The notes under the pieces are model-generated. The model was not told the DNA's origin, ran no database searches, and saw nothing but the letters and a program-made list of their open reading frames with translations. 64,000 nt of DNA from Marinobacterium stanieri. Its GTDB lineage: Bacteria > Pseudomonadota > Gammaproteobacteria > Pseudomonadales > Balneatricaceae. This document shows, piece by piece, positions 11,463-54,962 of the stretch (the first letter of the stretch is position 1; every line of letters starts with the position of its first letter). The translations under genes were made by a program, and so were the position numbers. Location of the stretch: assembly GCF_900155945.1 (NCBI RefSeq), contig NZ_FTMN01000002.1, positions 186,001-250,000 on the forward strand. Direction: 5' to 3'.

Positions 11463-12227
11463 TTACCACTGGCAACCCGGGTAAGAACGGTGCGTAATCT
11501 GCATCTCGGTCAGCATGTGACCCAGATTTTCAGTGTGATAACCGGTACGGCCACCACGCACAGCCCAACTATCTTCAGGTACTGTCAGTGTCGCTTCGGT
11601 GAGAATGTCGCTGACCATTTTGTGCCACTCGTCACGCAGCTTGGACACGTCCACCGCGATACCGGCGTCGGCCAGCATCTGTTCGGTTTCGTCCATGTCG
11701 AACAGCTCATGGGTGTAGCCCCAGAGTGAATCGACCGCTTTCTGCGTACGCTTGTGACTTTCTTCGGTACCGTCACCCAGACGCAGAACCCATTCACGGC
11801 TGCGACGCAGGTGATATTTGGTTTCCTTGATACCCTTGGCCGCAATGGCAGACAGGGTTTCATCCTTGGAATGCAGCAGCTGCGGCAGTACCAGGGTGTA
11901 GTACACGTCTGCGAACAGCTGACGTACCTGCGAGTAGGCGAAATCACCTTTCGGCATTTCCATCAGCAGCAGGTTGCGGTATTCACGATCACTGCGCATA
12001 TAAGCGAAGTCATCTTCGGTGCGGCCATCATCAGCCAGCTCGGCTGCATAGGTGTAAAACATGCGGGCGCGACCGATGTAGTCCAGCGCCACGTTGCCGT
12101 AGGCAATATCTTCTTCCAGGAACGGGCCGTAGCTGACCCATTCAGAGATACGGTGACCCAGTACTACAGAGTCATCACCCAGACGGGTGGCGTATTCCAG
12201 CGTTGCCGCTTTGATTGCATCACTCAT
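11463..12227 (-). CDS. paaC: Phenylacetyl-CoA epoxidase structural subunit PaaC
   Basis: PaaC is the ferritin-like partner that forms the PaaAC core of the epoxidase but lacks catalytic function itself. The protein has 254 residues, as expected, and contains DDSVVLGHRISEW, EEDIAYGNVALDYIG and the C-terminal GRTGYHTENLGHML. The start MSDAIKAATLEYA is preceded by GAGGAG; the longer open frame upstream runs into paaB and is not used. Confidence 0.95.
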   Translation of the reverse strand: MSDAIKAATLEYATRLGDDSVVLGHRISEWVSYGPFLEEDIAYGNVALDYIGRARMFYTYAAELADDGRTEDDFAYMRSDREYRNLLLMEMPKGDFAYSQVRQLFADVYYTLVLPQLLHSKDETLSAIAAKGIKETKYHLRRSREWVLRLGDGTEESHKRTQKAVDSLWGYTHELFDMDETEQMLADAGIAVDVSKLRDEWHKMVSDILTEATLTVPEDSWAVRGGRTGYHTENLGHMLTEMQITHRSYPGCQW

Positions 12228-12261
12228 TACTTGTCTCCTCAATCTATCCCGTGAATGCCAA

Positions 12262-12555
12262 TTACATGTTGTTAACGGGATCGGGCAGGACGTAATAAGT
12301 CGCATGGCGGTACGGCTTGTCGTCGTTCGGATCGTAGAAGCAATCCGCATCATCTTCCTGAGAGGCACAGATGTCGCTGGATTTAACAACCCACAGGCTC
12401 ACGCCTTCGCTACGACGGGTATAGCAGTCACGGGCGTATTCCAGTGCCTGTTCGTGATCTTCGGCGTGCAGGCTTCCAACATGCTTGTGGTCCAGACCGC
12501 GCTTGGAACGAACAAATACTTCAAACAGTTCCAGTTTTTCAGTTGGCTTAGTCAT
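12262..12555 (-). CDS. paaB: Phenylacetyl-CoA epoxidase small subunit PaaB
   Basis: This 97-residue protein bridges the PaaAC heterodimers. It shows the typical LFEVFVRSKRGLDHKHVGSLHA start and ends with the tract DDKPYRHATYY. It lies 14 bp downstream of paaA. Confidence 0.95.
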   Translation of the reverse strand: MTKPTEKLELFEVFVRSKRGLDHKHVGSLHAEDHEQALEYARDCYTRRSEGVSLWVVKSSDICASQEDDADCFYDPNDDKPYRHATYYVLPDPVNNM

Positions 12556-13979: not shown

Positions 13980-15998
13980 CTACACCTTGAAAGCGGACAC
14001 CACTGCCTGCAGTCGCTCCGTTTGCTGCGCCATCTGACGACAGGCTTCTACCGTCTCACGTGCCCCGTTGGCGGTTTGGCTTCCCACCTGGCTAATCGAG
14101 TGTATATTGCGTTCGATTTCACTGGCCACCTGGGTCTGCTGCTCACCTGCAGAGGCGATCTGGGTGTTGAAATCGAGAATGCGACTGATTGCACTCGAGA
14201 TATGCTCGAGACTACGGCCGACTTCAGAGGAATTGGACACCGTCTGGCCAACCTTGCCGTGCGACACCTCCATCGCTTTCACAGCCTCGCCCACGCCTGA
14301 CTGCAAGCCGAGAATCATGCTTTCTATTTCCGCGGTTGACTCCTGAGTGCGCTTGGCCAGAGTGCGCACTTCATCTGCAACGACGGCGAAGCCGCGCCCC
14401 TGCTCCCCTGCCCGCGCTGCCTCGATCGCCGCATTCAACGCCAGCAGGTTGGTCTGCTCGGCAACGCCTTTAATGACATCCAAAACCTGGGCAATGGTGT
14501 CACTTTCCTTGACCAGCCGGCGGATTGAGCCCATGGCGTTATCGATATCCGTCGACAGCTGGTGTATGTCACCCAGGGTCACCTCAACCAGCTTTTGCCC
14601 CTGCGTCGCTTCGGAATCCACACTGCCGGTTTCACGGGAAGCCACCTGGGTTTGCTTGGCAACATCTTCTGCACTGGCAACCATCTGGTTGACCGCCGTG
14701 GCCACCTGCTCGGTTTCCTGCTGCTGACGTTCAACATCCTCACGGCTTCGGTGAGCAATACCATCCACCACAGCAGCCTGGCTTGCCACAGCCTGCGCCG
14801 TACTGGTGACCTGCCCCAGCAGATTGCGCATCTGCTCAACCATGGCGTTGAACCGCCCCGCCAGTCGCCCCATTTCATCACGGTTGCCGATACAGACCTG
14901 CTGAGTCAAATCACCCTGGGCCACTGACTCCGCTGCCGAAAGCAGCGCATTAATTGCCCTGCGCACCGACACACTGAACCCCAGCATCAGATAGTTCGTG
15001 AGCACAAACACCAGCACAATCGCAGCCAAAAGCCCGTAGAACAACTGCTCCTGCGCCCCATAACGCTGTTGCAGCCGGCCATTCACGAATTGCAGCGCAG
15101 CATCAATGAATGCATACACCTGCTCGGTCGTGGCCGATTCGCGCTGGTAATAGCTGCGCCAGTCATAATCGATATTTTCATCCAGCAGCAAATCGTTCTC
15201 GAAACGAACAACCCCTTGCTCAAGGCTCTCAACGATTGCTTGAGCCGAGTCGATAACGGCCTTTCCATAAACGGCCTCGTTGCCCAGAACAGGTCGCAAG
15301 GCACTATCGAGACGCTTCTGGTCACTTAACAACTCGTCCATCAAACGACTGAGGATTTCAATCATGGTGGAGTTCATGGTGCCCGAACGCACAGTAAGCG
15401 TGGAGAAGCTGCGCATCTGCCCCTGATGCTCAAGCAGCGACTCCATGGAGTCGAGCACCGTTTTCATCAAGACAAAGTTGTTCGGATCCGAATCCTGATA
15501 GAGTCCCGTGTGATAACTGATGGTGTGCACCAGTATCCAGCTTTCCAGAACCAACTGGTTTTCATTGGCAAAGCTGCCTTCGGTATTGGAGCCGGACGAC
15601 ATCAGCGGCTTGTTACTGATGGCCTCAAGCCGCTCAAACGAGTCCGCCAGCTTGCCTTCCAGCCCCAGCTCAGCCACATAGACTTGCAACCTCGCCAGAT
15701 TTTCCGCATAGGCATCACCCAGCTCAGCGATCTCCTGCTGCAGGACATTCGCGGTCTCACGCACTACGGTCAGGTCCCGGACCTCACCGGCGATACGGGT
15801 TAACTCAAGGGCTTGCTGCAGGGCCTCCATTCCGCTCAGCTGTTGCCGGGTAGAATCCTTCCTGGCCGATATATCGCTCAGTTGCATATAGGCCAGCCAC
15901 AACAGGGGAATAAGAAACAGCAAATTGATCAGAATAAATTTAGACAGGTAGGACAGCCTGTTCATCAGGCTGATCGCAGGCGTAAGCAAACTTGGCAT
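13980..15998 (-). CDS. Methyl-accepting chemotaxis protein
   Basis: A transmembrane chemoreceptor that signals to CheA/CheW. In order: an N-terminal membrane helix (about residues 20-45), a helical periplasmic ligand domain of about 270 residues, a second membrane helix (about 315-335), a HAMP domain, and a cytoplasmic coiled coil. The coiled coil contains the highly conserved hairpin tip, beginning about LLALNAAIEAARAGEQGRG. I set the start at MPSLLTPAISLM; a longer frame of 25 residues exists but is not hydrophobic. There is no recognisable Cache or PAS fold, so the ligand is unknown. It stands next to attL, so it was the downstream neighbour of the tRNA cluster before the phage inserted. 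Confidence 0.9.
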   Translation of the reverse strand: MPSLLTPAISLMNRLSYLSKFILINLLFLIPLLWLAYMQLSDISARKDSTRQQLSGMEALQQALELTRIAGEVRDLTVVRETANVLQQEIAELGDAYAENLARLQVYVAELGLEGKLADSFERLEAISNKPLMSSGSNTEGSFANENQLVLESWILVHTISYHTGLYQDSDPNNFVLMKTVLDSMESLLEHQGQMRSFSTLTVRSGTMNSTMIEILSRLMDELLSDQKRLDSALRPVLGNEAVYGKAVIDSAQAIVESLEQGVVRFENDLLLDENIDYDWRSYYQRESATTEQVYAFIDAALQFVNGRLQQRYGAQEQLFYGLLAAIVLVFVLTNYLMLGFSVSVRRAINALLSAAESVAQGDLTQQVCIGNRDEMGRLAGRFNAMVEQMRNLLGQVTSTAQAVASQAAVVDGIAHRSREDVERQQQETEQVATAVNQMVASAEDVAKQTQVASRETGSVDSEATQGQKLVEVTLGDIHQLSTDIDNAMGSIRRLVKESDTIAQVLDVIKGVAEQTNLLALNAAIEAARAGEQGRGFAVVADEVRTLAKRTQESTAEIESMILGLQSGVGEAVKAMEVSHGKVGQTVSNSSEVGRSLEHISSAISRILDFNTQIASAGEQQTQVASEIERNIHSISQVGSQTANGARETVEACRQMAQQTERLQAVVSAFKV

Positions 15999-17889: not shown

Positions 17890-18885
17890 TTACACCGCTT
17901 CTTCGATCACATAGGGGTCGAATTTCACTACCTCCTCGCCCATCCATTCGTTGAGTTCCAGGAAGCGGCTTTGCAGCGGTACCAGTTCGTTGCGGGCGAA
18001 TACCATGGATGCCTTCTCCACATCTCCGAATCCGCCTACGTTGCTGGGCATGATACCCATCAGAACGGGTGGCACGCGGTGCGCTGCGAGCATGTCATCG
18101 CGGGTGACGTTTTTGATGTTGAAGATGTCGTCCTTGGCCGCGACCTCGCTGATCGGGATCACCTGCAGGCCGTCTTTCTTGCCGTTGGGCGAGTACATGA
18201 ACAGGTTGCGGAAGTTACCAGGGCCTTTGCTATCCTTGAGTGCCTGGCGAAGGTTGTCCACGTCACTTTCGTTCTGGGCCGTGTCAGTCATGTAGAGGAT
18301 GAAACCCGCGTGGCTGCCGTTTAGGTAATACTTGCGGCGGAACAGCGTGGCGCTCTCGTTCAACCAGGCGCTGTTGAGTGCAGCGAGGTATTCCGGCAGG
18401 CCGTAGATCTCCTGGTTGATATCGGGCTCCATCAGGTGGAAGACGCTGCCCTTGCGGAACTCGTGCTCCTTGCCCCAACCGCGCACGAACCAGTAGGTGT
18501 CCAGGTCGAGTCCACGGCGGGTGTATTTGGCCAGTGCTGGTTCCAGCGTCATGGAGCGATTGCCCATGCTTTTCTGGTTTTCGAGATAAGCGTTGCCGAA
18601 AATAATGAAGTCCAGAGCCCAGCGACGGAATGCCTGGCGGGACAGCAGCCTGTGCGGCTTGAATGCACTGGTCAGGATGTTGGCCTTGAAGTAGATCGGG
18701 CTGCTGTGGTGGGTCGCTGCCCGGAAGGACTTGGCCAGGCCATCGAATGACAGCGGCGTCTCGTACCACTTCTGCATCTGCAGGCATTCGATGTAGTCCA
18801 GGATCTCGCGCTTATCGAGTACCGGTGTCGGGTCGCCGAAGCTGAAGGCCTCAATGCCGGGCTGTTTCTCTGCTGTCTCGCTCAT
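17890..18885 (-). CDS. Q: Phage portal protein (P2 gpQ family)
   Basis: The portal dodecamer forms the DNA entry vertex of the capsid. The 331-residue length is close to P2 gpQ. Family features include FSFGDPTPVLDKREILDYIEC near the N-terminus, LDLDTYWFVRGW, and the C-terminal AHRVPPVLMGIMPSNVGGFG. It forms a minus-strand operon with the terminase gene, overlapping it by one base, as in P2. Confidence 0.92.
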   Translation of the reverse strand: MSETAEKQPGIEAFSFGDPTPVLDKREILDYIECLQMQKWYETPLSFDGLAKSFRAATHHSSPIYFKANILTSAFKPHRLLSRQAFRRWALDFIIFGNAYLENQKSMGNRSMTLEPALAKYTRRGLDLDTYWFVRGWGKEHEFRKGSVFHLMEPDINQEIYGLPEYLAALNSAWLNESATLFRRKYYLNGSHAGFILYMTDTAQNESDVDNLRQALKDSKGPGNFRNLFMYSPNGKKDGLQVIPISEVAAKDDIFNIKNVTRDDMLAAHRVPPVLMGIMPSNVGGFGDVEKASMVFARNELVPLQSRFLELNEWMGEEVVKFDPYVIEEAV

Positions 18886-38421: not shown

Positions 38422-38847
38422 ATGCTGCTTAGCCTGGGACAATTTGTATTTGGTATCCCCACCCTCAGTTACCAGCAGCTGCAGCGCCAAAACAACTGGC
38501 GTTGGGCGGCCAACAACCGGGTGGGCCAGCGCCCTGCACGGCAGTTTGTCGGCCCCGGTGATGACACAATCAACCTCAGCGGGTGGATATCGCCAGAGCT
38601 ATGCGGCGACCTCAAAGCCATCGATACCCTGCGCCTCATGGCAGACCAAGGCGAGCCCTATGTACTGGTGGATGCTACCGGTACCGTATACGGGCTCTGG
38701 GTGATTGAGAGCCTGAGCGAAACCGGCACCCTACACGGTATCGACAGCAAACCGCGCCGCGTGGACTTCTCACTGACGATCGCACGGGTGGATGATGATC
38801 TCATTGACCAGGTAGGACTGATTACCGACGCCGAGGCCATGCTATGA
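38422..38847 (+). CDS. U: Tail protein U
   Basis: A 141-residue gpU protein with LGQFVFGIPTLSYQQLQRQ, the WRWAANNRVGQRPARQFVG-type stretch, and LRLMADQGEPYVLVD. It lies between T and D, overlapping D by four bases. Confidence 0.94.
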   Translation: MLLSLGQFVFGIPTLSYQQLQRQNNWRWAANNRVGQRPARQFVGPGDDTINLSGWISPELCGDLKAIDTLRLMADQGEPYVLVDATGTVYGLWVIESLSETGTLHGIDSKPRRVDFSLTIARVDDDLIDQVGLITDAEAML

Positions 38848-39830
38848 GCCGCTTCTACAAACCCAGCTACCGCCTGGAAGTAAACGGCCAGAACATCACC
38901 CCGAAGATCAACGGCCGCCTGATCAATATGACGCTTACCGACGAGCGGGGCCACAAATCCGACCAGCTCGATATCGTGCTATCCGATCACGGCGGCCAGC
39001 TCGATATCCCGCCGCGTAACGCTTCCATCAAGGTTTGGTTTGGCTGGGATGGCGCTCTTACCTACAAGGGCCAGTTTGTGCTGGATGAATCCAACCACTC
39101 CGGGCCACCCGATATCCTCACCCTGCGGGCACGGGCGAGCGACTTTAAAGGCCCGCTGAAAGTGAAACGGCAACAAAGCTGGCACAAGGTAACTCTGGGC
39201 GACATTCTCACCACCATAGCCGGCCGCAGTGGCCTCACGCCCGTGATAAACGACAGCCTGGCCAGTACCCGGATCGATCATATCGATCAAACCGACGAGA
39301 GCGACCACAACCTGCTGCAGCGCCTGGGCGAACGTTACGACGCCCTGCACTCAGTCAAGGACGGCCGTCTGCTGTTCGCACCTGCAGGCCAAGGCTCAAC
39401 CGTGGGCGGTACCGCCTTCCCGACCGTTACAATCACCCGCCAGGAAGGCGATACTCACAACTACCAGCAGACCGACCGCGAACACGAGTACACCGGCGTA
39501 CAGGCGCACTGGCACAACACCGATACCGGCCAGCAGGAAACCATCACCGTTGGTACCGACGAGAACGCCCGGGTGCTACGCCATACCTACCCGACCCCTG
39601 AAGAGGCAACCAGCGCCGCCAAAGCAGAATGGCAACGCATCAGCCGCGCCGGCAGCAAGCTAACGCTATCGCTGGCGATCGGCCGGGCAGAACTGATACC
39701 GGAGACACCGGTAAGTGCGGTGGGATACAAGCCAGAGATTGATGCAACGGAGTGGGTGATCGAGCGCGTGGTTCACTCGCTGGATGAGAGCGGGTTTACC
39801 ACGCGGGGGGAGATGGAAGTGAAGAGATAA
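38844..39830 (+). CDS. D: Late control protein D / baseplate hub
   Basis: A 328-residue gpD (T4 gp27/VgrG-like hub) with YRLEVNGQNITPKINGRLI, FKGPLKVKRQQSWHKVTLGD and LHSVKDGRLLF. The last 40 codons (from about 39701) recur at 41351-41470 as a decayed copy. It is the last gene of the FI-to-D operon; cargo genes follow. Confidence 0.95.
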   Translation: MSRFYKPSYRLEVNGQNITPKINGRLINMTLTDERGHKSDQLDIVLSDHGGQLDIPPRNASIKVWFGWDGALTYKGQFVLDESNHSGPPDILTLRARASDFKGPLKVKRQQSWHKVTLGDILTTIAGRSGLTPVINDSLASTRIDHIDQTDESDHNLLQRLGERYDALHSVKDGRLLFAPAGQGSTVGGTAFPTVTITRQEGDTHNYQQTDREHEYTGVQAHWHNTDTGQQETITVGTDENARVLRHTYPTPEEATSAAKAEWQRISRAGSKLTLSLAIGRAELIPETPVSAVGYKPEIDATEWVIERVVHSLDESGFTTRGEMEVKR

Positions 39831-40074
39831 CCTTAGAATTTATAAAAGGAACAACCTGCCCACTTCAAGTCACCATAAATTAACAAAAAACGTAAGATAA
39901 GAATAATAATTGATCACTAAATGCGACACTAATATTAATTATATTTCAGCAATATTAATACTGTGTAAATCGTTGAAAAGCTAGCATCCTGCTTTAGAAT
40001 AAATACCTCATCGGATAAAAGCCGTATCCAATTTAGAACATTTTTCAAAACCAAAGTGTATCACGGAGTGAAAC

Positions 40075-40626
40075 ATGGACGTTCAAATGTGTACCCCATC
40101 AGATGATAAGCTCGTTATCATCGAATCCCTTCACGTTTCAAGCATTCATAAATTCAGTGTTTCAACGCAGGTGTATCGGCGCGTATACGGTGTATGCCAC
40201 TCTCAGGATGTATATTTTGATAATGAAAAGCTAAACAAACCATTATCGGGACTACAAATTCTGCAAAACTTCATAAGCGGTGGTGACAGGGTTACGACTA
40301 AGCCTACTGGCGAAGAACTGGTCATTACTCGTTATATGGGTAGCCGAAACTACCTGAAACCGGTTGGCGACCTGAACGTCAATAATGAAATTGGCAAAGC
40401 ACTCTCCAAGGACTACTACATTGGCAGATTGGGCCAGCTGTTCGCTTATGGCACAGACCCTATACCCGACGTAAAGCTTTTCGGGAATGCCAGCATGACG
40501 TTTTCAATGGCAGGCAATGGTGCTTACCCCGTAGCCGTTGCCGTCTATGACAGCGCTACAGGAAACCTCTCACAGGTCCTGGACCCTGTCGAAAAGAAGC
40601 GCATGATTCTGGAATTGGTTAAGTAA
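40075..40626 (+). CDS. Cargo protein of unknown function
   Basis: A 183-residue soluble protein with no signal peptide or membrane segment, in DNA of lower GC than the tail genes. About 244 bp of AT-rich sequence separate it from gene D, so it may have its own promoter and be expressed in the lysogen. It includes VITRYMGSRNYLKPVGDLN and GNASMTFSMAGNGAYPVAVAVY. I do not recognise the family. It is followed by a four-TM protein gene 35 bp downstream, then a terminator. Confidence 0.6.
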   Translation: MDVQMCTPSDDKLVIIESLHVSSIHKFSVSTQVYRRVYGVCHSQDVYFDNEKLNKPLSGLQILQNFISGGDRVTTKPTGEELVITRYMGSRNYLKPVGDLNVNNEIGKALSKDYYIGRLGQLFAYGTDPIPDVKLFGNASMTFSMAGNGAYPVAVAVYDSATGNLSQVLDPVEKKRMILELVK

Positions 40627-40661
40627 CCGTTAAACAGGCTAATTAAGTTCAGGTATTAGCA

Positions 40662-41075
40662 ATGAAAAAAGTAGTTATAGCATTTATCGTAGGGATCGTA
40701 CTTTCGCTGATTCCTTTGTTCGGGTATGACGCATTTTTATCCAGCCTGGATGCTAATATCGTATCAGCCACACCAACAGACATAGGTATGGAAAGTTTAT
40801 ATTGCGCAGGTGGTTTATCTGCGTTTGGTTTCATTTCGACACTGATATTGCTGACATTTGATTCCAAACGCCTGATCGCTCAGTATGCTGTCATATCTGT
40901 TGTAGCACTACTTGTCATATCATTCATTAAAATCAACCTGATGATTCCTGACACTGAGAATGCTTTGTTCTCAAGGGATGTAAGCCTGTACACAATCCCC
41001 TACTACCTGACCTTTGTTGTGGTACCAGTATTCTTTTTGAGTAAGGCATTTCTGAATAGAGCGCCGACTTCATAA
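40662..41075 (+). CDS. Four-TM cargo membrane protein
   Basis: A 137-residue protein with hydrophobic segments at about residues 4-22, 45-66, 74-93 and 112-130. It has no known motif. It pairs with the preceding soluble gene: same strand, short gap, shared terminator. The pair could be an exclusion or membrane-acting two-gene unit; this is inference. Confidence 0.6.
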   Translation: MKKVVIAFIVGIVLSLIPLFGYDAFLSSLDANIVSATPTDIGMESLYCAGGLSAFGFISTLILLTFDSKRLIAQYAVISVVALLVISFIKINLMIPDTENALFSRDVSLYTIPYYLTFVVVPVFFLSKAFLNRAPTS

Positions 41076-41093
41076 AGAAGATGACTACATATT

Positions 41094-41128
41094 AAAGGCC
41101 GCTTGATTAGCTTCAATGTGGCCTTTTT
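41094..41128 (+). terminator. Terminator after the two-gene cargo unit
   Basis: The stem AAAGGCC / GGCCTTT with a 20-base loop is followed by a T run. It lies 18 bp after the membrane protein stop. Confidence 0.75.
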
Positions 41129-41188
41129 TATTAGCTTTTGAAGGCATTAAACCTACGTCGGTCTGATCTAAAGGGCACTAAGTAGAAA

Positions 41189-41486
41189 GTTAACACAGCT
41201 GGTAAAACCGGCACGGCCAAGGTGCTTAGGCACCAATACCTTACAAGAGGAATCCATATCAGCTGCTGATGCAGCCGCGTGGACCGCTCTTAACCGAGCA
41301 CTGGCGGAGTTCATCCTAAACCCAGCCAAAAAGGAAGTAGGTCTTCTGCCTGAGACACCGGTAAAGGCGGTGGGCTACAAGCCAGAGATTGATGCAACGG
41401 AGTGGGTAATCGAACGCGTGGTGCACTCGCTGAATGAAAGTGGGTTTACCACGCGGGAGGAGATGGAGGTTTGTAAGCGTCAATGA
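41189..41486 (+). pseudogene. Decayed C-terminal fragment of a second gene D
   Basis: Translation gives VNTAGKTGTAKVLRHQYL, then, after a frameshift near 41235, QEESISAADAAAW, and finally an uninterrupted stretch matching gpD: ETPVKAVGYKPEIDATEW and HSLNESGFTTREEMEV. The last 120 bp (41351-41470) are about 90 percent identical to 39701-39820 of the intact gene; the upstream part is more divergent, so it came from a different gpD allele and not from a simple local duplication. A stop codon in the same frame lies just upstream, so no functional protein is made. Confidence 0.85.
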
Positions 41487-41497
41487 TGATATATAAA

Positions 41498-42349
41498 TCA
41501 AGAACCAGCGGGGGCATCTACTTTTATTGAATCAAATAGACCAGAGTTTTTGAGTGTATTTTTCACAAAATCAGCAGTATTGATACTGTAAAGCCAGAGT
41601 GTTACTTTTCCTTTTTGAATAAATACATTATCTGGGATAATGAATTCAGAAATCAATTCTAAAACCTCATCAATATCATCTATATCACTTTCACCCTCTC
41701 TTAAGAAAGCAACAACTCTGCAGACATCGTGCGAGTGTTTTTTAGCTTCATCGTAAACATCAAACGGATTACGAATCATGTTATTAGAAACATTTCTAAT
41801 ATTTTTACTTGAATTAGCCAGTATAGACTCAAATTTTTCCATTTTACTTAATACAAAGCTTTGAAAGTCACTTTCAGGTTTCATTTCCTTCATAACTTTG
41901 TATGTCGCAGCACGATAAACTGGGTTGTCTGGCTCATCATCATCTAACGAGTCGGCAGCCATTTTTTCTAGCATCGTCTTTAAGCCAGTTACTCCAGCCA
42001 TGTCATTTCTATAGAAAATTGTTCTTTCATCTGAAATATCAAAAGGGAGATCGGTTCCCTCTTCGGCCAAAGAAATAACTGGCAACCGGGTAGAATGCCT
42101 TACAGCCAATTCATACATTACATTAGGGTTAAGAGTGGTTAGGTTAGCTATTACCAAATCATCTTCAAGAATATGTTCTAGTACTTGCGTTGTAATTGAA
42201 CCCGGCGTATCAATACGATGAGCGACAAACATTTCAAGGTTTAGGTTTTTACAAACCGGTCCAATAACAGAGTCAATTAAGCCATCTGCTGCTCTGCGAA
42301 TGTCACTACCCTCTTTTCCAATTGGCGTGACTACGAAACATTTTTTCAT
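41498..42349 (-). CDS. Nucleoside-deoxyribosyltransferase/TIR-like effector candidate
   Basis: A 283-residue protein with a Rossmann-like N-terminal domain (about residues 1-130). Motifs are CFVVTPIG (4-11), TPGSITTQVLEHILEDD (48-64), LVIANLTTLNPNVMYELAVR (65-84) and PVISL. This set (a PIG turn, then AdLVIANLT-NPNVxYEL) is typical of nucleoside 2-deoxyribosyltransferase-like and TIR-like proteins, where the Glu of YEL (Glu80) is the candidate catalytic residue. A second domain of about 95 residues is unassigned. It is the last gene of a minus-strand, AT-rich four-gene unit. NAD or nucleotide cleavage on phage infection is inference. Confidence 0.7.
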   Translation of the reverse strand: MKKCFVVTPIGKEGSDIRRAADGLIDSVIGPVCKNLNLEMFVAHRIDTPGSITTQVLEHILEDDLVIANLTTLNPNVMYELAVRHSTRLPVISLAEEGTDLPFDISDERTIFYRNDMAGVTGLKTMLEKMAADSLDDDEPDNPVYRAATYKVMKEMKPESDFQSFVLSKMEKFESILANSSKNIRNVSNNMIRNPFDVYDEAKKHSHDVCRVVAFLREGESDIDDIDEVLELISEFIIPDNVFIQKGKVTLWLYSINTADFVKNTLKNSGLFDSIKVDAPAGS

Positions 42350-42382: not shown

Positions 42383-43318
42383 TCAAATATCAAAATAGAC
42401 CGCAATGGGATCTATAACAATTTCATTTTTTTGTTTCCCAGAGATAGACTTTTCAATATTAGTCACATGCTCAATCAGATTCAAAATTGCTTGCTTCAGG
42501 TTGTCAAAGTCATTTTTTTCATCAATCTCAGCTCTTGGATCGTTTAAATCTTGAGATACGATGCCGAAAACAGTAACGTCACGCACGGTTTTTCTTGAAT
42601 ATTTCTTAACCAATAAATCCTCATTTTCTCTGAGAAAATTTCTTTTCAAGCAAGAAGTAAAGAGGCCATCACCTAGTTTCTGCGAGACTTCAAATTGATC
42701 AGAAAATCCATATTTAGTCATAAGACTAAGGTTATCCAGAAATTTTTGATCATGATATAACCCCATTTGCTTTGCCCTATCACTGAGGTTACTTAACTTC
42801 TTTAGTTCGGCAGTTTTAGCTTTAACCATATTCTGCTTCCCAGCTTGCTTCAGAAGCTCAATCTCTTGATTCAGAATATTTTGTTGTTCAAATATATTTG
42901 CGTGTGCTAAAGCTTCTCCAATTTTATTAAATTCAGAGAACATTTCTGTTATCTTATTAACATCATTAAATACAGCCTTAGATTTTATCTTTATGAATGA
43001 ATAATCATTCATTGAAGATTCCAGATCTCCTAGTCTAACGCTATCATCACTTAAACTTAAAACTCTATTATCCTCTTCTAAGTATTTCTCAAAGAGAGTG
43101 AATGAATAATCATGCAAGAATTTTTTTTCAGTTGAAGACCCTCTTGATATCATTGCATCCGCTAATATTTTTCCACTACCTACCGGTCCCTTCTGCTGCT
43201 CACCTTCTTCCTTCTCTTCTGCAACCTCTTTGAGTACATACTCTGTAACACCCTCAAATATTTGAGATGAAAGGGAGTACATTTTATCTTCATCAAGATA
43301 TAAAAAATTCTTAATCAT
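42383..43318 (-). CDS. Uncharacterised YLDE-motif protein, probable sensor or partner
   Basis: A 311-residue protein that starts with FLYLDEDKMYSLSSQIFEG and continues with QQKGPVGSGKILADAMISRG. This start is shared by a widespread uncharacterised bacterial family (possibly DUF6414; I cannot verify). The middle (about 125-185) is a charged helical, coiled-coil-like part. The C-terminal third is beta/alpha with TVRDVTVFGIVSQDLNDP. There is no enzyme motif. It starts inside the stop codon of the 42-residue gene (ATGA overlap) and lies 33 bp before the deoxyribosyltransferase-like gene, so it is probably made with both. Confidence 0.65.
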   Translation of the reverse strand: MIKNFLYLDEDKMYSLSSQIFEGVTEYVLKEVAEEKEEGEQQKGPVGSGKILADAMISRGSSTEKKFLHDYSFTLFEKYLEEDNRVLSLSDDSVRLGDLESSMNDYSFIKIKSKAVFNDVNKITEMFSEFNKIGEALAHANIFEQQNILNQEIELLKQAGKQNMVKAKTAELKKLSNLSDRAKQMGLYHDQKFLDNLSLMTKYGFSDQFEVSQKLGDGLFTSCLKRNFLRENEDLLVKKYSRKTVRDVTVFGIVSQDLNDPRAEIDEKNDFDNLKQAILNLIEHVTNIEKSISGKQKNEIVIDPIAVYFDI

Positions 43319-43443
43319 TTTCGACCTTTCCTATCTTTATATTCCAAATAATATTTTTTTCTTGTATCAATGAAGGACCATATTGAAAATAGTATTCCAG
43401 CTATACACGCGAGTGCTGTTATAATTACGATAGCTTCATTCAT
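43315..43443 (-). CDS. 42-residue single-TM peptide in the cargo operon
   Basis: The frame opens with ATG directly after the stop of the four-TM gene (TAAATG) and ends in an ATGA overlap with the next gene. AGAGGTGG precedes it as ribosome site. The peptide has one hydrophobic segment (about 3-22) and a basic tail (TRKKYYLEYKDRKGRK). The exact couplings on both sides argue that it is a real gene. Confidence 0.7.
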   Translation of the reverse strand: MNEAIVIITALACIAGILFSIWSFIDTRKKYYLEYKDRKGRK

Positions 43444-43848
43444 TTATGCCACCTCTTTACTTGAAAGTTTTGTAATTCTGTCAAATACGATAAAACTTAG
43501 TAAAAAAGAAACCATAGAAAGAGCTATAGCACATCGCTCAATATAGGAAGTATTTATAGATGAAACACCTTCACTCAGCATAGTTAGTGAAAAAAGAACT
43601 GTATAGATAGCAATAAAAACTATTGAGAAACCGTTATGTCTCGTTTTCCAATCTCTATCCTTAGAGTCAAAATGTTCAATTTCATTGATATTTGATATAT
43701 GTAAAATGAGTCCAAAAGCTATAAAGTCAGATGAGGATATTATATTAACTGTCCCAGGTGTGGTTACCACCCATATTAAAAACCTAGAAAACATGGGAAT
43801 CAAACCAACAAGAACAGTATATATAAGCCATTTAGATTTGCTATTCAC
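43444..43848 (-). CDS. Four-TM membrane protein, first gene of the cargo operon
   Basis: A 134-residue protein starting with GTG, eight bases after AAAGGGG. Hydrophobic segments lie at about 8-28, 40-52, 74-92 and 108-124. The only soluble part is a charged loop (HFDSKDRDWKTRHNG). It has no recognised family. It begins a tightly coupled minus-strand unit with the small peptide, the YLDE protein and the deoxyribosyltransferase-like protein. Confidence 0.65.
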   Translation of the reverse strand: MNSKSKWLIYTVLVGLIPMFSRFLIWVVTTPGTVNIISSSDFIAFGLILHISNINEIEHFDSKDRDWKTRHNGFSIVFIAIYTVLFSLTMLSEGVSSINTSYIERCAIALSMVSFLLSFIVFDRITKLSSKEVA

Positions 43849-43886: not shown

Positions 43887-44207
43887 CTAAAAGCTAAATG
43901 CCTTATCGTACTTTCGCCCTTTTTCGGAACTTTCACGATAGTTTTCAATAAATTTCTTTTCTTGATGGGATACTGAACAAATCACGCCGGTCAGCACATA
44001 GTTGATATCGATGCCTATGCTGGCAGAACGAGCGAGAATATCGGTTGGTAAACGTTGCTTGTGTCGAAGCACATCGCGAATGCGGTAGTGCTCTATGTCT
44101 GTACGTCTGGCAATCTCAGAAATACTCATCCCGGTTTTGTCGATCTCTTCGGCAAACCGTTCTGTGATAGCCAATGCTTCTAAGTCTTTAGAACGTCCCT
44201 GTTCCAT
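43887..44207 (-). CDS. Small helix-turn-helix regulator
   Basis: A 106-residue protein with a helix-turn-helix (GMSISEIARRTDIEHYRIRDVL) at about 26-47 and a segment SIGIDINYVLTG typical of phage repressor-like proteins. It lies just upstream of the four-gene cargo unit on the same strand (38-bp gap), so it may regulate that unit or be part of the immunity region. Confidence 0.75.
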   Translation of the reverse strand: MEQGRSKDLEALAITERFAEEIDKTGMSISEIARRTDIEHYRIRDVLRHKQRLPTDILARSASIGIDINYVLTGVICSVSHQEKKFIENYRESSEKGRKYDKAFSF

Positions 44208-44236: not shown

Positions 44237-44518
44237 TTAGCTTCCAGCCCAGCGCATAATGGCGAACACCAAACCAGCGGCCGCCAGTATGGAACCTACA
44301 TTCCACATAATGTGCTGACGCAGCAGTGAGTGCATTTCTGCTTTGAGATCAAACAGGTCTGCCTTGGTGGCCATGTTGGTGTTCATGTTCTCCTGCATAT
44401 GGCCCAAGGTAGTTTTAACCGTCGCCATATCCTGTTCTAAATGCCGCAGCCTTTGTTCCATGTCAGGGGGGCCTCCTGAGCCATCAATTACACGAAGATT
44501 GGATGCTTTATAGCTCAT
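44237..44518 (-). CDS. Coiled-coil protein with a C-terminal membrane anchor
   Basis: A 93-residue protein with a predicted coiled coil (about 20-62, EQRLRHLEQDMATVKTTLGH) and one C-terminal TM (about 72-90). GAGG lies before the ATG of MSYKASNL. It resembles small phage coiled-coil anchors near the immunity region; the role is unknown. It overlaps the preceding gene by 11 bases. Confidence 0.6.
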   Translation of the reverse strand: MSYKASNLRVIDGSGGPPDMEQRLRHLEQDMATVKTTLGHMQENMNTNMATKADLFDLKAEMHSLLRQHIMWNVGSILAAAGLVFAIMRWAGS

Positions 44519-44807
44519 TCTTGTCCTCTCCCTGAAGAAATGCCAGTATTTCCGCATCACGGAAGTAGCGGATAAAACCGCAATTTCCGCATACCTGCAT
44601 CAACTCGCCATAGCCCAAACGTGGGTCTTCTTCCAGCCTCCGTACCACACGTACAGCAGGTGCCTTGCCTTCCCCGGATAGCGATGGGTCGTTCACAGGG
44701 ATCGATAACCCAGCCGCCAAACCACAGGTTGGGCAATCATCCCCTACGCCCTTTGAGGCCAGGAAGCGGGAAAACTGTTCGCCGGTAATACCGCCGTTTG
44801 AGCTCAT
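44508..44807 (-). CDS. Zinc-ribbon protein of the immunity region
   Basis: A 99-residue protein with two Cys pairs, CPTC at about 25 and CGNC at about 73, followed by GFIRYFRDAEILAFL. It is cytoplasmic and of unknown function, cotranscribed with the repressor gene just upstream (31-bp gap). Confidence 0.6.
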   Translation of the reverse strand: MSSNGGITGEQFSRFLASKGVGDDCPTCGLAAGLSIPVNDPSLSGEGKAPAVRVVRRLEEDPRLGYGELMQVCGNCGFIRYFRDAEILAFLQGEDKNEL

Positions 44808-44838: not shown

Positions 44839-45186
44839 TCATCCCTGATTGGTTTTTTTGTCTGTCTTCTGGCCAGCCGACATCACCTCGCTGACCCGGT
44901 ACACCGCCTCTCGTTGCTCATCGCAGAGGTGGCGGTAGTTGTCCAACAATGCGGATTCATCTGGTTTTAATGGCTCCGGCTCCCCTGCTCTCTCTCCAGT
45001 GAGAATGTAGAGAACATCAAAGCCATGCTTTGCCAGTGAAGAAAGTTGCACACCTGTCGGTGACGAGTCCCCTTTTTCCCACGCTATGACCGTTCTTCTG
45101 GACGTACCAGCCAACTCAGCAAGGCCTGGCTGGCTCAGTTCGTGGGCTTCACGCTCTTCTTTCAGACGACTGCCAAGGTCACTCAT
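44839..45186 (-). CDS. Phage repressor, XRE family (C-type)
   Basis: A 115-residue protein with an N-terminal helix-turn-helix (LSQPGLAELAGTSRRTVIAW) and a C-terminal dimerisation-like half, the size of P2-group C repressors. It is divergent from the early operon, with operator-like palindromes between them. It should keep the prophage silent. Confidence 0.8.
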   Translation of the reverse strand: MSDLGSRLKEEREAHELSQPGLAELAGTSRRTVIAWEKGDSSPTGVQLSSLAKHGFDVLYILTGERAGEPEPLKPDESALLDNYRHLCDEQREAVYRVSEVMSAGQKTDKKTNQG

Positions 45187-47164: not shown

Positions 47165-47491
47165 ATGAGTGGCAGCACAACCAAACTTAGCACCTACAAA
47201 CTGGTATGCCCGCACTGCCGGCACGGGCTGCGTGTACGCAACTCCTACTCGCTGCATCTGCTTCTGCGGGCCACCTACCTGCAGTGCACCAACGTCAACT
47301 GCGGGGCGACTTTCCGGGGCCAGATGGAGATTACCCACGCCATGAGCCCATCGGCCTGCCCCAACCCCGAGATCGATCTGCCAGTGGCTGATTCCGAGAT
47401 CCGCCGCCAGGCAATTGAGCGCGAAAACCGCAAACAGATGGATTTTGACGACCTCCTGCAGGACGAAGACGTACAGGGCAAGCCGGCATGA
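47165..47491 (+). CDS. ogr: Ogr/Delta-type late transcription activator
   Basis: A 108-residue zinc-finger protein with CPHCRHGLRVRNS, the spacing LRATYLQCTNVNCGATF and the SPSACPNP tail, the diagnostic Ogr/Delta arrangement with four Cys binding zinc. It activates late promoters together with host RNA polymerase. In P2, ogr lies after gene D; here it sits in the early operon just before the replication gene, which it overlaps by four bases. Confidence 0.92.
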   Translation: MSGSTTKLSTYKLVCPHCRHGLRVRNSYSLHLLLRATYLQCTNVNCGATFRGQMEITHAMSPSACPNPEIDLPVADSEIRRQAIERENRKQMDFDDLLQDEDVQGKPA

Positions 47492-50169
47492 ACCCGCAAC
47501 TCCGAGACGACATCATTGCCCGCCTGACCCAGCAGTTAAAAGGCAAGGCGGTCAAACAGTACATCAGCAAGATCGAGTGCCCCAGCTGTAACCAACGGGA
47601 GGCGTTCACCAACGTGGACGCGCCCTGGATGGTGAAGTGCGGCCGCGAGAACCGCTGTGGTGCCCAGCATCATGTGAAAGACCTGTTCCCGGAGCTGTTC
47701 GAGACCTGGACGGAGCGCTACGCCCCCAAGGATGAAGCGGCACAGAAGGCGAACCCCACTGCCGTTGCCGATGGCTACCTGCGTGACGGCCGCGGATTCG
47801 ATCTGATGAAAATCCGCGGTTGGTACACCCAGGAGTATTACCACGACCACAAGATCAACCAAGGCACCACCACGGTGCGCTTCGCCCTGCCCAATGGCCA
47901 CTGGGAGCGCCTGCTGGATAAGCCGCAGAGGTTCGGGAAGCAAAAGGCGCGCATCATCGGCAACTACAAGGGCACCGCCTGGGTACCGCCGATCCTGACC
48001 GCTAAGGAGCTGGCCGAAGCCAAGGAGATCTGGATTACCGAGGGGATCTTCGATGCGATCGCACTGATGCACGAGGGCATCACGGCGATATCAAACCTCA
48101 GCTCTGCCAACTACATCGATGTCACCCTGGAGGAGATCCGCAAGGCAGTGCCCCAGGGCGGCAAGCTGCCGACGCTGGTGTGGGCACAGGACGGCGACCG
48201 AGCTGGACGCAAGGCCACGCTGAAGCACCGTGACCGTGCCGAGGCTTCAGGCTGGGAGTGCGAGGCTGCACAGATTCCGCTGATGGATGGCCGCCGGCAC
48301 GACTGGAACGACCTGCTGCAGCGCGAGCGGTTGGGTGCCAAAGATCTGGACCGATATCGGTATTACGGGGATCTGTTGCTGGCACGCACCGCCGCTGAAA
48401 AGGCGTTGTTGATCTACAACCACAACGCACAGAACGACCGGGGCAAGCGCGAATTCTGGTTCGAGTTTGGCGGCAAGCTCTGGTGGTGGAAATTGGACCT
48501 GGAAGCCTTCGACCGTGAAATGCGCGAACAGGAAGCGGACGGCCCTGAGCAGATGAGTGAGCAGCAGCGTGAAACTGCATTGAAAGCCGCCGGCATGCTG
48601 TCCTGCGTCTGCAGCGCGGTACCGACACCGTTGTACTTCCAGCGCAACAGCGTGACCGATGAAAGTTGGTATTACTTCCGCATAGAAATGCCCGACGAGT
48701 CCGTGCACAAGCATGCGTTCACGCCCAAGCAGCTTACCAGTGCAAGCGAGTTCAAAAATCGCCTGCTGGGCATCAAGAACGCCTGGTGGATCGGCTCAGG
48801 CAAACAGCTGGACCGCATCATGCAGGATCAGATGATAGGCCTGCGCACCGTCGAAACCATTGATTACATCGGGTACAGCAAAGACCACGGGGTTTACGTT
48901 TTCACGGATGTGGCGATCAAGGACGGCAAGGTGGTGCCCATCAACGATGAGGACTTCTACCAGTTCGGCAAGTTGTCTCTGAAGACGTTGGCAGGATCTC
49001 CGGAGATCCAGCTGAACACCGACACCAGTGAGTACAACCCACATTGGGCCAGCCAAGTTGCTCAGGGCTTTGGCAGCATCGGCGTGGTCACAACCGCATG
49101 GTGGCTGGGCGCACTGTTCGCCGAGCAGATCCGCCGAAAACATAAGAGCTTTCCATTCTTTGAACTGGTGGGCGAAGCCGGTGCCGGTAAATCCACGCTG
49201 ATCGAGTTCCTATGGAAAACCTGCGGTCGCATCGATGAGGAGGGTTTCGATCCTGGAAAGCTGTCTCTTCCCGCCCGGTCTCGCAAATTTGCACAGGTAT
49301 CCAACCTACCTGTAGTGCTGATCGAAGCCGACCGAGACAGTGACAAAGCTAAGGCGAAGCAATTTGACTGGGATGAAATGAAGCCCCTGTTTAACGGGCG
49401 TGCAATCCGCAGCATAGGCCTGAAGACCACCGGCAATGAAACCAAAGAGCAGCCATTCCGAGGCTCAATCATGATCAGCCAGAACGCCCAGGTAGAAGCC
49501 AGTGAGGCGATCCTGAGCCGTATCTGCCACATCACCCTGACCCGTGAACACCAGAACGCCCAAACACGCGTTGCGGCGGAATGGCTAGAAAGCATACCCA
49601 TGGCAAATGTCAGCGGCTTCCTGCTACAGGCAACCCGTGCCGAGCAACACCTAATGGAGATCTTCGACAAGGCTGCCAAGCACTATGAGAAGTATCTGTA
49701 CCAGCTGGACGAGATCCGCATGATCCGTATCGCCCAATGCCACGGCCAGCTGATTGCCTTGGTGGATTGCCTGGGCGAGAAAGGCCTAGGCCTGCTGCCC
49801 GAGCCGATCATTGCTGAGGCCCGCAAATTCGTAGTGGAAATGGCCAAAGAGCGCCAGGCGGCACTGAATGCCGACCACCCTATGGTCACGGAGTTCTGGG
49901 AGGCGTTCGACTACATCGAGGGGACGGGCGACAGCATCACCTCAAAGCTCAATCACTTCGGCACAGGCAGCAATCAGATTGCTGTGAACCTGAAACAGTT
50001 CGAGCGCTGGTGTGGTGAGTTCAAGTTGCGCACACCCGAGATGCGCACGCTTAAGCAGCTGCTGCGCACCAGTAAGAGCCGCAAGTTCCTGGATTCCAAC
50101 CGATCGGTCAGCAGCAAGATCCTTGAAGGAGGGAAAACAGTGAAGTGCTGGGTTTTCGATAAAGGATAA
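47488..50169 (+). CDS. Primase-helicase replication protein
   Basis: An 893-residue protein that replaces P2 gpA. In order: a CHC2-like zinc finger (C31-C34 and C51/C57), a Toprim primase domain with WITEGIFDAIAL and WAQDGDRAG (about 180-245), a DUF927-like middle part, and an ATPase/helicase with Walker A GEAGAGKST (about 561-570) and Walker B VVLIEADRD (about 610). It probably primes and unwinds at the phage origin. The fusion resembles P4 alpha in plan, not in detail. Confidence 0.85.
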   Translation: MNPQLRDDIIARLTQQLKGKAVKQYISKIECPSCNQREAFTNVDAPWMVKCGRENRCGAQHHVKDLFPELFETWTERYAPKDEAAQKANPTAVADGYLRDGRGFDLMKIRGWYTQEYYHDHKINQGTTTVRFALPNGHWERLLDKPQRFGKQKARIIGNYKGTAWVPPILTAKELAEAKEIWITEGIFDAIALMHEGITAISNLSSANYIDVTLEEIRKAVPQGGKLPTLVWAQDGDRAGRKATLKHRDRAEASGWECEAAQIPLMDGRRHDWNDLLQRERLGAKDLDRYRYYGDLLLARTAAEKALLIYNHNAQNDRGKREFWFEFGGKLWWWKLDLEAFDREMREQEADGPEQMSEQQRETALKAAGMLSCVCSAVPTPLYFQRNSVTDESWYYFRIEMPDESVHKHAFTPKQLTSASEFKNRLLGIKNAWWIGSGKQLDRIMQDQMIGLRTVETIDYIGYSKDHGVYVFTDVAIKDGKVVPINDEDFYQFGKLSLKTLAGSPEIQLNTDTSEYNPHWASQVAQGFGSIGVVTTAWWLGALFAEQIRRKHKSFPFFELVGEAGAGKSTLIEFLWKTCGRIDEEGFDPGKLSLPARSRKFAQVSNLPVVLIEADRDSDKAKAKQFDWDEMKPLFNGRAIRSIGLKTTGNETKEQPFRGSIMISQNAQVEASEAILSRICHITLTREHQNAQTRVAAEWLESIPMANVSGFLLQATRAEQHLMEIFDKAAKHYEKYLYQLDEIRMIRIAQCHGQLIALVDCLGEKGLGLLPEPIIAEARKFVVEMAKERQAALNADHPMVTEFWEAFDYIEGTGDSITSKLNHFGTGSNQIAVNLKQFERWCGEFKLRTPEMRTLKQLLRTSKSRKFLDSNRSVSSKILEGGKTVKCWVFDKG

Positions 50170-53563: not shown

Positions 53564-54751
53564 ATGGCCCGCCCGAAAAAAATACGCTATTTCAATGGAG
53601 TGAAACTGGAAGACAACCTGTACCCCGATAACCGAGGCAGGGAATGTCACTGGAGATATAAGCGTCCGGACGGGACTTTCAGGCACTTCACCGCTGAGTC
53701 GGTGGATGCTGCAAACTTCATCGCACGCCATAACAACGAACGTCGAAACAACCCCTCACCAGCGAAACCGTCCGGTAATAGATTGGGTACCCTCGCTCAT
53801 TACGTGGGTGACTTCATTCACCACAGGGAAACCCAATCACCTGACCTGAAAACTAAGCGCAGCTGGAGGAACCGTTGTTATTCACTTCATCAATTCACCC
53901 GCACGATCACCAAACAGTTGTCTTACCTGGAACGATCAGACGTAAACGACTGGTGGGACACCCTCAGCCATCACCAGCAGAAAGCCCGTCATGCCGAGTT
54001 CCGGAAGTTCTTCAACTACCTGATGGGCCGCAACTTGCTACCGCGCATGGATTACAACCCCTTCACCACAGCCGACGATCGGCCACGCCTGTACACGCGC
54101 AGCCAGCCGGCAAGACGTGCAAAACGTCTGACACGTGTGGGCTTCTGGGCGATCTACAACAGCGCCGGAGAGCTAGGGTATGAGTGCCTGCAAGTTGCGA
54201 TGGGGATTAGCCTGCTGACGTTCATGCGCGAAGGTGATATTTGCGACCTCCGCTTGGATGAAGATATCGAGGACAATTTGATTAAGCGGGTTATTGGGAA
54301 GTCGGAAAACCAGAAAGGCAGTGCAAAAGCCGCTCGCTTGAAATGGGATCTGGGCAACTACCAGTTGCTGCGTAAGTTAATACAGCGTTCACGCATCCTG
54401 TCACTGCAGAACCGTCGTTGTCCCTATGTGATTAGTCACTGGCCAAAACAACGGCGCTTGGGTAAAACGAAGACACATCTCGCCCAAGTCACACCTCGGC
54501 GATTGATTGCAATGTTTGATGAATCTCGGAAGCATGCAGGCTTTACTGGCGATGATGCACCTGGCTTTCACCACATCCGCTCACTGGCCGATAAATTGGC
54601 TGCTGATGCCGGCTATCACATTCAGACCATCCAGCATGCCATGGCTCACTCATCCGAAGAGATGACCAGGTTATACCAGGATGGGCACGAGCTGCCGTAT
54701 GAAACTGTAGAAATTGCCTTCACTGAACATCAGATAGGTGGCTCGTTTTAA
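53564..54751 (+). CDS. int: Tyrosine-type phage integrase
   Basis: A 395-residue recombinase. An N-terminal arm-binding part (residues 1-70) is followed by a core-binding domain and a catalytic domain with Arg in FMREGDICDLRL, His-x-x-Arg in FHHIRSLADKLA, His in HAMAHSS and the nucleophile Tyr in MTRLYQDG. All catalytic residues are present. It ends about 160 bp from attR, as expected. Confidence 0.95.
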   Translation: MARPKKIRYFNGVKLEDNLYPDNRGRECHWRYKRPDGTFRHFTAESVDAANFIARHNNERRNNPSPAKPSGNRLGTLAHYVGDFIHHRETQSPDLKTKRSWRNRCYSLHQFTRTITKQLSYLERSDVNDWWDTLSHHQQKARHAEFRKFFNYLMGRNLLPRMDYNPFTTADDRPRLYTRSQPARRAKRLTRVGFWAIYNSAGELGYECLQVAMGISLLTFMREGDICDLRLDEDIEDNLIKRVIGKSENQKGSAKAARLKWDLGNYQLLRKLIQRSRILSLQNRRCPYVISHWPKQRRLGKTKTHLAQVTPRRLIAMFDESRKHAGFTGDDAPGFHHIRSLADKLAADAGYHIQTIQHAMAHSSEEMTRLYQDGHELPYETVEIAFTEHQIGGSF

Positions 54752-54914: not shown

Positions 54915-54962
54915 TGGTGGAGCCTAGCGGGATCGAACCGCTGACCTCGACACTGCCAGTGT
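54915..54962. other. attR, phage attachment site
   Basis: The second 48-bp copy of the tRNA-Ala 3' half, here within the complete tRNA gene. It differs from attL by one base (54949 G). Confidence 0.95.

Follow-up and report, generated by a model that had tools for sequence, protein, structure and literature searches.

Temperate phages are modular mosaics, in which accessory genes (morons) carrying their own signals lie between core genes and are bounded by sharp mosaic junctions. Islands at the 3′ ends of genes (tRNA genes, guaA, icd) restore the gene that they enter and leave its old end on their far side. The locus described here recalls both arrangements. It belongs to a P2-like prophage of Marinobacterium stanieri (assembly GCF_900155945.1, contig NZ_FTMN01000002.1, positions 186,001–250,000); this whole stretch of 64,000 nt is called the window, and all coordinates of the prophage are those of the window. 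Downstream of its intact gpD gene, which encodes the tail baseplate hub (late control D), the end of gpD recurs as a broken fragment lodged between two blocks of cargo genes. This fragment is probably a non-functional scar, left when two P2-like phages recombined at a cargo site that separates gpD, the end of the late operon, from the repressor genes and where cargo would have been gained in layers. The insertions and junctions are of the same type as those of morons, but here the two cargo blocks are parted by a second, degenerate copy of the neighbouring core gene, which gives a layer order. As in the islands, an intact gene is retained and an old end lies on the far side; in contrast to them, the cargo pair comes without an integrase family or an exact core, the repeat (122 bp) is diverged, and additional upstream homology has been displaced together with the gene end.

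Cargo hotspots of P2-like phages are already known. The defence hotspot of Escherichia coli P2, as presented in the available part of Rousset et al. (PMC9122126), is a compact locus of variable content enclosed by two conserved phage genes, with a high turnover and defence-like cargo; the site in the window shares this setting and turnover, and its cargo may be defence-like as well. However, the P2 hotspot is located beside cos, between gpA and gpQ (PMC9122126, same part), whereas the present one extends from the end of gpD at 39830 to a repressor-like gene at 44839. Since the primase gene lies at 47488–50169 and the portal gene at 17890–18885, the A–Q interval of this prophage is elsewhere. 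A further difference from the P2 hotspot, as that part of the paper describes it, is that the left border can fall inside gpD and that gpD-tail scars mark old joins. No paper on gpD-tail scars or on a gpD-internal cargo border was found in the open-access literature.

The prophage spans about 17.2–54.8 kb of the window, in a genome of 4.68 Mb on 24 contigs, and its integrase gene (53564–54751) adjoins tRNA genes starting at 54915. Matches to PHROGs for portal, terminase, major head, tail sheath, tape measure, tail protein, primase and integrase are found in the expected places. The prophage thus has the P2-type structural set of Peduoviridae, with the gpD hub closing the tail operon, and the tail gene order is the same in relatives. 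The intact gpD (38844–39830, plus strand, 328 aa) matches PF05954 with 48.2 bits (cut-off 30.1) and the PHROG 52 tail protein with E = 6.8e-131, as well as 377 phage records, named Peduoviridae among them. The whole genome contains this single gpD and the single fragment, with no further gpD match.

The first-pass annotation, made from the sequence alone, had noticed that the end of gpD recurs 1650 bp further on at about 90% identity, behind a more divergent and frameshifted part, and both statements are borne out. The 3′ segment of gpD at 39699–39820 (plus strand) recurs at 41349–41470, with 90.2% identity over 122 nt, a start-to-start distance of 1650 bp and a longest exact run of 32 nt (BLASTN E = 8e-42 against a set of gpD-downstream regions). 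As a control, three other 1-kb stretches upstream of gpD gave 0 matches in 71 downstream regions. The second copy is preceded by about 160 bp of divergent, frameshifted gpD sequence. A profile of gpD residues 226–285, from which the local gpD was excluded, matched one piece in frame +2 (about 41180–41248, 10.0 bits, E = 1.5e-4) and another in frame +0 (about 41265–41321, 6.3 bits, E = 2e-3), colinear with the former. The best of 500 mononucleotide shuffles reached 6.3 bits, a score that the first piece exceeds and the second, taken alone, only equals. The two colinear pieces in different frames therefore make the copy a truncated, frameshifted gpD end from about 41186, whose frame closes at the TGA of 41484–41486, the same end that the first-pass annotation had assigned to it. 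The identical copy of this stretch in IMG/VR (L027; L-numbers denote phage and prophage loci, G-numbers genomes) is probably not independent of the window assembly.

The same annotation had attributed the whole fragment to another gpD allele, which stands for its upstream part and fails for its end. A codon alignment of 267 intact gpDs and two fragments places the last block of this one (129 nt) nearest to the local gpD, at 0.86 identity; for the preceding 75 nt the nearest genes are those of L028 and L097 (0.56), the local gene reaching 0.40. The match switches abruptly at gpD codon ~285: sites informative for local gpD versus L028 are distributed 6:18 before this codon and 24:3 after it (p = 3.8e-6), and the same switch tested against L097 gives p = 1.5e-6. 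Among 30,198 pairs of intact gpDs with an upstream identity below 0.62, the highest end identity is 0.736, upstream meaning 60 codons in these pairs and 25 codons in the fragment. The 5′ part of the scar (41186–41348, plus strand) would thus be a divergent piece of another gpD allele, nearest to L028/L097, and its 3′ part (41349–41486, plus strand) the stop-bearing terminus of a gpD, for which repeat, codon alignment and informative sites alike give the local gene as the closest. Over the last 120 bp, the fragment and the local gpD differ at 12 positions, eight synonymous and four non-synonymous (dN/dS 0.12); were all 12 neutral, so few amino-acid changes would have a probability of 0.0006–0.001. 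On these comparisons the fragment is a mosaic and not a simple duplicate, with an upstream part from another allele and an end of local type; nor is it wholly foreign, since no sampled gpD is nearer to its last 122 bp than the local one.

Similar scars were looked for behind other gpD genes. Out of 437 sequences (seven copies of the window's locus being set aside), 330 had a gpD match and 319 a full gpD; removing redundancy left 283, and requiring 600 nt or more of downstream sequence left 259. At the scar limit of E ≤ 1e-6, 11 of these regions matched a gpD. Four of them (L340, L341, L349 and L365) were dropped, as they match the read-through extension of the L342 gpD. That gene reads about 110 codons past the usual stop, through a sequence which lies downstream of gpD in the four others. 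Seven scar regions are left: the window, L043 (in two places), L051, L237, L033, L032 and L009, the match in L009 being to another gpD type (L236). By gpD type, the strict counts are 2/28 for the window type (3 with L223), 3/13 for the Halomonas type and 2/76 for the Janthinobacterium type. A weaker eighth case, L223, was kept out of the strict counts: the match of 53 nt (E = 3.5e-6) is within the range of upstream chance matches, and the case rests on a 22-aa in-frame match stopping at the gpD end. With looser scoring, the regions upstream of gpD gave ten weak matches (1e-6 to 1e-4) as well as an inverted one, situated at the end of a contig. Matches in that range were dropped, being commoner upstream than downstream, as were L117 (match inverted and at a contig end), second weak matches at E ≤ 1 in ten other loci, and short matches with E of 0.002–0.008 in L036, L011, L019 and L076. 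Judged from the counts, such scars are genuine and recur among these phages, though infrequently: they were found in 7/259 regions, against 0/255 in the identical search upstream of gpD and none in 20 further loci from relatives.

The switch at codon ~285 is met again in the L237 scar (12183–12424 of that locus), which is own-type upstream (0.79 vs 0.57) and Halomonas-type at its end (0.93 to L009 vs 0.55 to its own gpD); its informative sites are 34:9 for the own type upstream and 4:52 for the foreign end (p = 6e-14). Intact genes display it as well. L229 and L232 are alike until 121–136 nt before the gpD stop, then differ through the gpD end and the cargo, and their similarity returns at 88% from +769/+2095, beyond the cargo (p = 4e-11). 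L274 and L267 are about 0.95 identical before codon ~285, then 0.76, 0.67 and 0.64 to the gene end (p = 4e-11; L267 comes without downstream sequence for comparison). Several results of screening the intact gpDs weigh against a special role of this point. A strict screen, with one block at 88% or more and the other at 70% or less, gave no pair at codons 280–286 and one at 268–278 (L237/L232), and also gave pairs at codons 102–124 and 164–186; a loose screen gave three pairs from two clades near codon 285, and more pairs at 92–130 and 142–206. The discordance elsewhere in gpD comes from a variable stretch, as mean identity dips at codons 121–140 and recovers on both sides; near codon 285, by contrast, the pairs lose identity and do not regain it before the gene end. 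A recombination joint is thus slightly favoured, L274/L267 staying low up to the gene end. That four cases coincide near codon 285 is suggestive of a joint there, in a sample too small for proof, and the last ~41 codons of gpD may tend to be exchanged together with cargo.

The cargo between the two gpD ends is a unit with its own leader and a terminator-like hairpin (39906–41142, plus strand). The two plus-strand genes announced by the first-pass annotation are present: ORF183 (40075–40626; 183 aa, no hydrophobic segment, no family match) and ORF137 (40662–41075; 137 aa, a predicted membrane protein with about four hydrophobic segments). The terminator of that annotation is seen by eye only, as a hairpin with a T run at 41094–41129 (plus strand), which does not appear in the output of the terminator scanner (loop limit 8); a similar hairpin in G005, a genome of the same genus, was also read by eye. 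G005 carries the unit on its contig 13 (L119, 261–1496), at 82.3% identity over 1240 columns (91% for ORF183, 84% for ORF137). This copy sits outside any recognised P2-like prophage, in a genome with no gpD match, and is flanked on one side by a dehydrogenase-like gene, assigned by reading open reading frames (ORFs). The first protein of the pair was found in 2/144 relatives and in 2/341 genomes of the order, which are both times G005 and the window's own genome, G000; among viral contigs, the pair was found in the window's own phage only. From this distribution, the cargo pair is an independent unit.

In the recombination favoured here, an incoming right arm, made of a complete gpD and the cargo pair, would have joined the resident genome inside the resident gpD. 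This would have kept a working gpD in place, while the old gpD would have been reduced to its final ~290 bp, frameshifted and enclosed by the new pair and an older cassette at 41.5–43.8 kb. The old gpD would already have been mosaic and have changed type at codon ~285, its last ~41 codons being of local type and the preceding ones belonging to a different allele. The older cassette would have come first, and the join would have been non-homologous. The layering part of this proposal, which was that of the first-pass annotation, is sustained by the independence of the pair in G005 and by L043, where gpD is followed by one cargo ORF, a scar (12330–12555), a RelA/SpoT-domain gene, a second scar (14245–14358), HEPN and GmrSD genes, and a repressor-like gene. 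Two successive scars between three cargo blocks reproduce the proposed layered pattern with one layer more.

Several points weigh against this proposal. The search for a prophage with one layer only, suggested by the same annotation, found none: the pair is found just in G000 and G005, and the DUF6414 gene of the older cassette in no other of the 144 relatives. Alignment with related gpDs did not provide the allele of origin either, as none of those sampled matches the fragment throughout. The upstream piece of the scar is short (75 aligned nt) and only 56% identical even to L028/L097. Which layer came first is deduced from which of the two gpD copies is intact, and the window probably corresponds to a single assembly of this strain. 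The synonymous bias of the gpD end is supportive rather than decisive since, if only six of the 12 differences post-date the loss of function, P is 0.24 and not significant. Finally, scars are rare, with 0/76 in the Dobby, 0/65 in the Mana and 0/1 in the other gpD types, besides their absence from the 20 further loci, and those of L032 and L033, at equal offset, may be one event.

Other histories can be considered for the same arrangement. One is a duplication of the local gpD end inside a single genome, followed by decay of the copy. Of all sampled genes, the local gpD is indeed the one nearest to the last 122 bp, and tblastn of the whole fragment also scores the local gene best (101 bits vs 89 for L028). 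The parts of the fragment do not follow this overall score: a copy of the local gene should resemble it throughout, as the first-pass annotation had also required of a simple duplication, whereas the upstream part has 40% identity to it and 56% to L028/L097, with a sharp switch. The differences at the end are mostly synonymous and, in the similarly built scar of L237, the end plainly belongs to another gpD type; such a simple duplication is thus quite unlikely. Since a foreign upstream part followed by an end matching the local gene is precisely what a single homologous crossover in the gpD end would give, a Campbell-type insertion was also considered. A circle bearing a partial gpD and the pair would yield a hybrid gpD, the pair and a hybrid fragment, and the two ends do share 122 bp at 90% with a 32-bp exact run. 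This would require a circular cargo intermediate, of which none was seen, and the ends in L237 are just ~55% identical, which is low for ordinary homologous crossover; this route appears unlikely.

Site-specific integration is another possibility: as a mobile element inserted at the 3′ end of gpD, the cargo pair would have brought a replacement end with it and pushed the original end aside. The old end beyond the cargo, the intact gpD and the occurrence of the unit elsewhere in the genus are consistent with this, but Pfam and PHROG profile scans revealed no recombinase or transposase family in ORF183 or ORF137. The flanking repeats are 90% identical, with no exact terminal core, and there are no convincing terminal repeats; a 21-nt inverted pair (39963/41132) is 76% complementary and is not at the unit ends. 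Moreover, the gpD homology of the fragment reaches well upstream of the repeat, and scars elsewhere begin at different gpD positions. Integration of this kind is thus very improbable. An assembly artefact joining two prophages would be compatible with the probable existence of one assembly of the strain, the identical L027 copy being no independent witness. However, similar scars occur in other assemblies, and there is no second P2-like gpD to mis-join, because the genome has one gpD and one fragment; such an artefact is hardly credible. Recombination between two P2-like phages is thus retained as the best explanation of the scar.

The interval in which this recombination is placed has variable content between two conserved genes: among 11 distinct relatives with both genes matched, the distance from gpD to the repressor ranges from 0.8 to 7.9 kb, with differing genes. 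An Eco29kI-type restriction enzyme is annotated there in Halomonas phage 4908; a GHKL-ATPase-like protein, assigned by reading and with weak PADLOC matches, is found in the same-genus prophage L222, and RelA/SpoT, HEPN and GmrSD/NsnA-type proteins in L043. The cargo of the window gives TIR-like and weak SLATT-like matches, and several cargo proteins of the window and L043 are without any match. Over 3,918 gpD pairs, the left border lies before the gpD stop in 3,643, a count given little weight because the pairs are non-independent, the lower of two ends was used, the gpD tail length varies, and L341/L342 distort it.

The presumed older cassette comprises three minus-strand genes. The first (41498–42349) encodes a 283-aa protein with a nucleoside-deoxyribosyltransferase/TIR-like N-terminal fold (PADLOC TIR effector, E = 3.6e-6; Foldseek MilB, 2.5e-5, and TIR-STING, 1.1e-4; structure model with a pLDDT of 74). 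It is followed by a DUF6414 protein gene (42383–43318; PF19952, 118 bits, cut-off 25) and by the gene of a 134-aa predicted membrane protein with a weak SLATT-like match (43444–43848; PADLOC RTasSLATT, E = 0.0015). The latter two are also paired in four other viral contigs (L438–L441), and a Vibrio phage record has a DUF6414 homologue between the CI repressor and integrase genes; among the 144 relatives, DUF6414 is confined to G000. No paper on DUF6414 was found in the open-access literature. The DUF6414 and 134-aa genes (42383–43848) form a candidate defence pair, and the older cassette likely has a defence role, as far as its gene content indicates. On the right, the cargo interval is bordered by a helix-turn-helix (HTH)-like regulator (43887–44207, minus strand; weak PHROG match, 1.4e-8), within which similarity to L222 resumes at 43984, and the hotspot is anchored by the HTH repressor-like gene (44839–45186, minus strand; PF01381, E = 2.9e-8), with homologues at the same place in relatives. 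Two small genes (44237–44807) separate these two HTH genes. The corresponding HTH genes of L222 are adjacent, so that the immunity region contains one more small insertion here.

Some observations concern the surroundings and distant relatives of the cargo pair. At the start of G005 contig 13 (L119, 1–330), a ~149-bp sequence lies at the contig end, about 110 bp from the pair. It has matches in 8/8 same-genus genomes, with more than one copy in five, and is probably the end of an insertion sequence, given this repetition. Distant relatives of ORF183 (~30%) are encoded on 13 Rhizobium plasmid records. In the one such locus that was read, the relative lies in a type VI secretion region, 3′ of an Hcp-like gene, and is followed by genes which we take to be Tai4/Tae4-like, resembling an effector–immunity pair. 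Single-sequence structure prediction of ORF183 gave no usable model (pLDDT 29).

How defence cargo enters and leaves phage hotspots is an open question: the available part of PMC9122126 leaves the exchange mechanism open and only speculates on cohesive ends and homologous recombination. The gpD-tail scars are physical traces of past joins, which suggest that an essential gene can itself contain the border of a cargo region. It is possible, though on balance doubtful, that gpD around codon 285 (PETPV...GYKPEIDATEW) is a recurrent joint, with cassettes carrying their own gpD tail (the last ~41 codons) and regenerating a working gpD; imperfect exchanges would then leave scars which record the stacking order of defence cargo and permit the loss of layers by recombination between tails. 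One concrete consequence is such a layer loss in the prophage itself: because its two gpD tails share 122 bp at 90% identity (32 bp exact), the same frame and the stop, deletion of the cargo pair leaving a full-length gpD is predicted. Scars of this kind can be searched for in any set of P2-like phages, where they may serve to order the layers of cargo.

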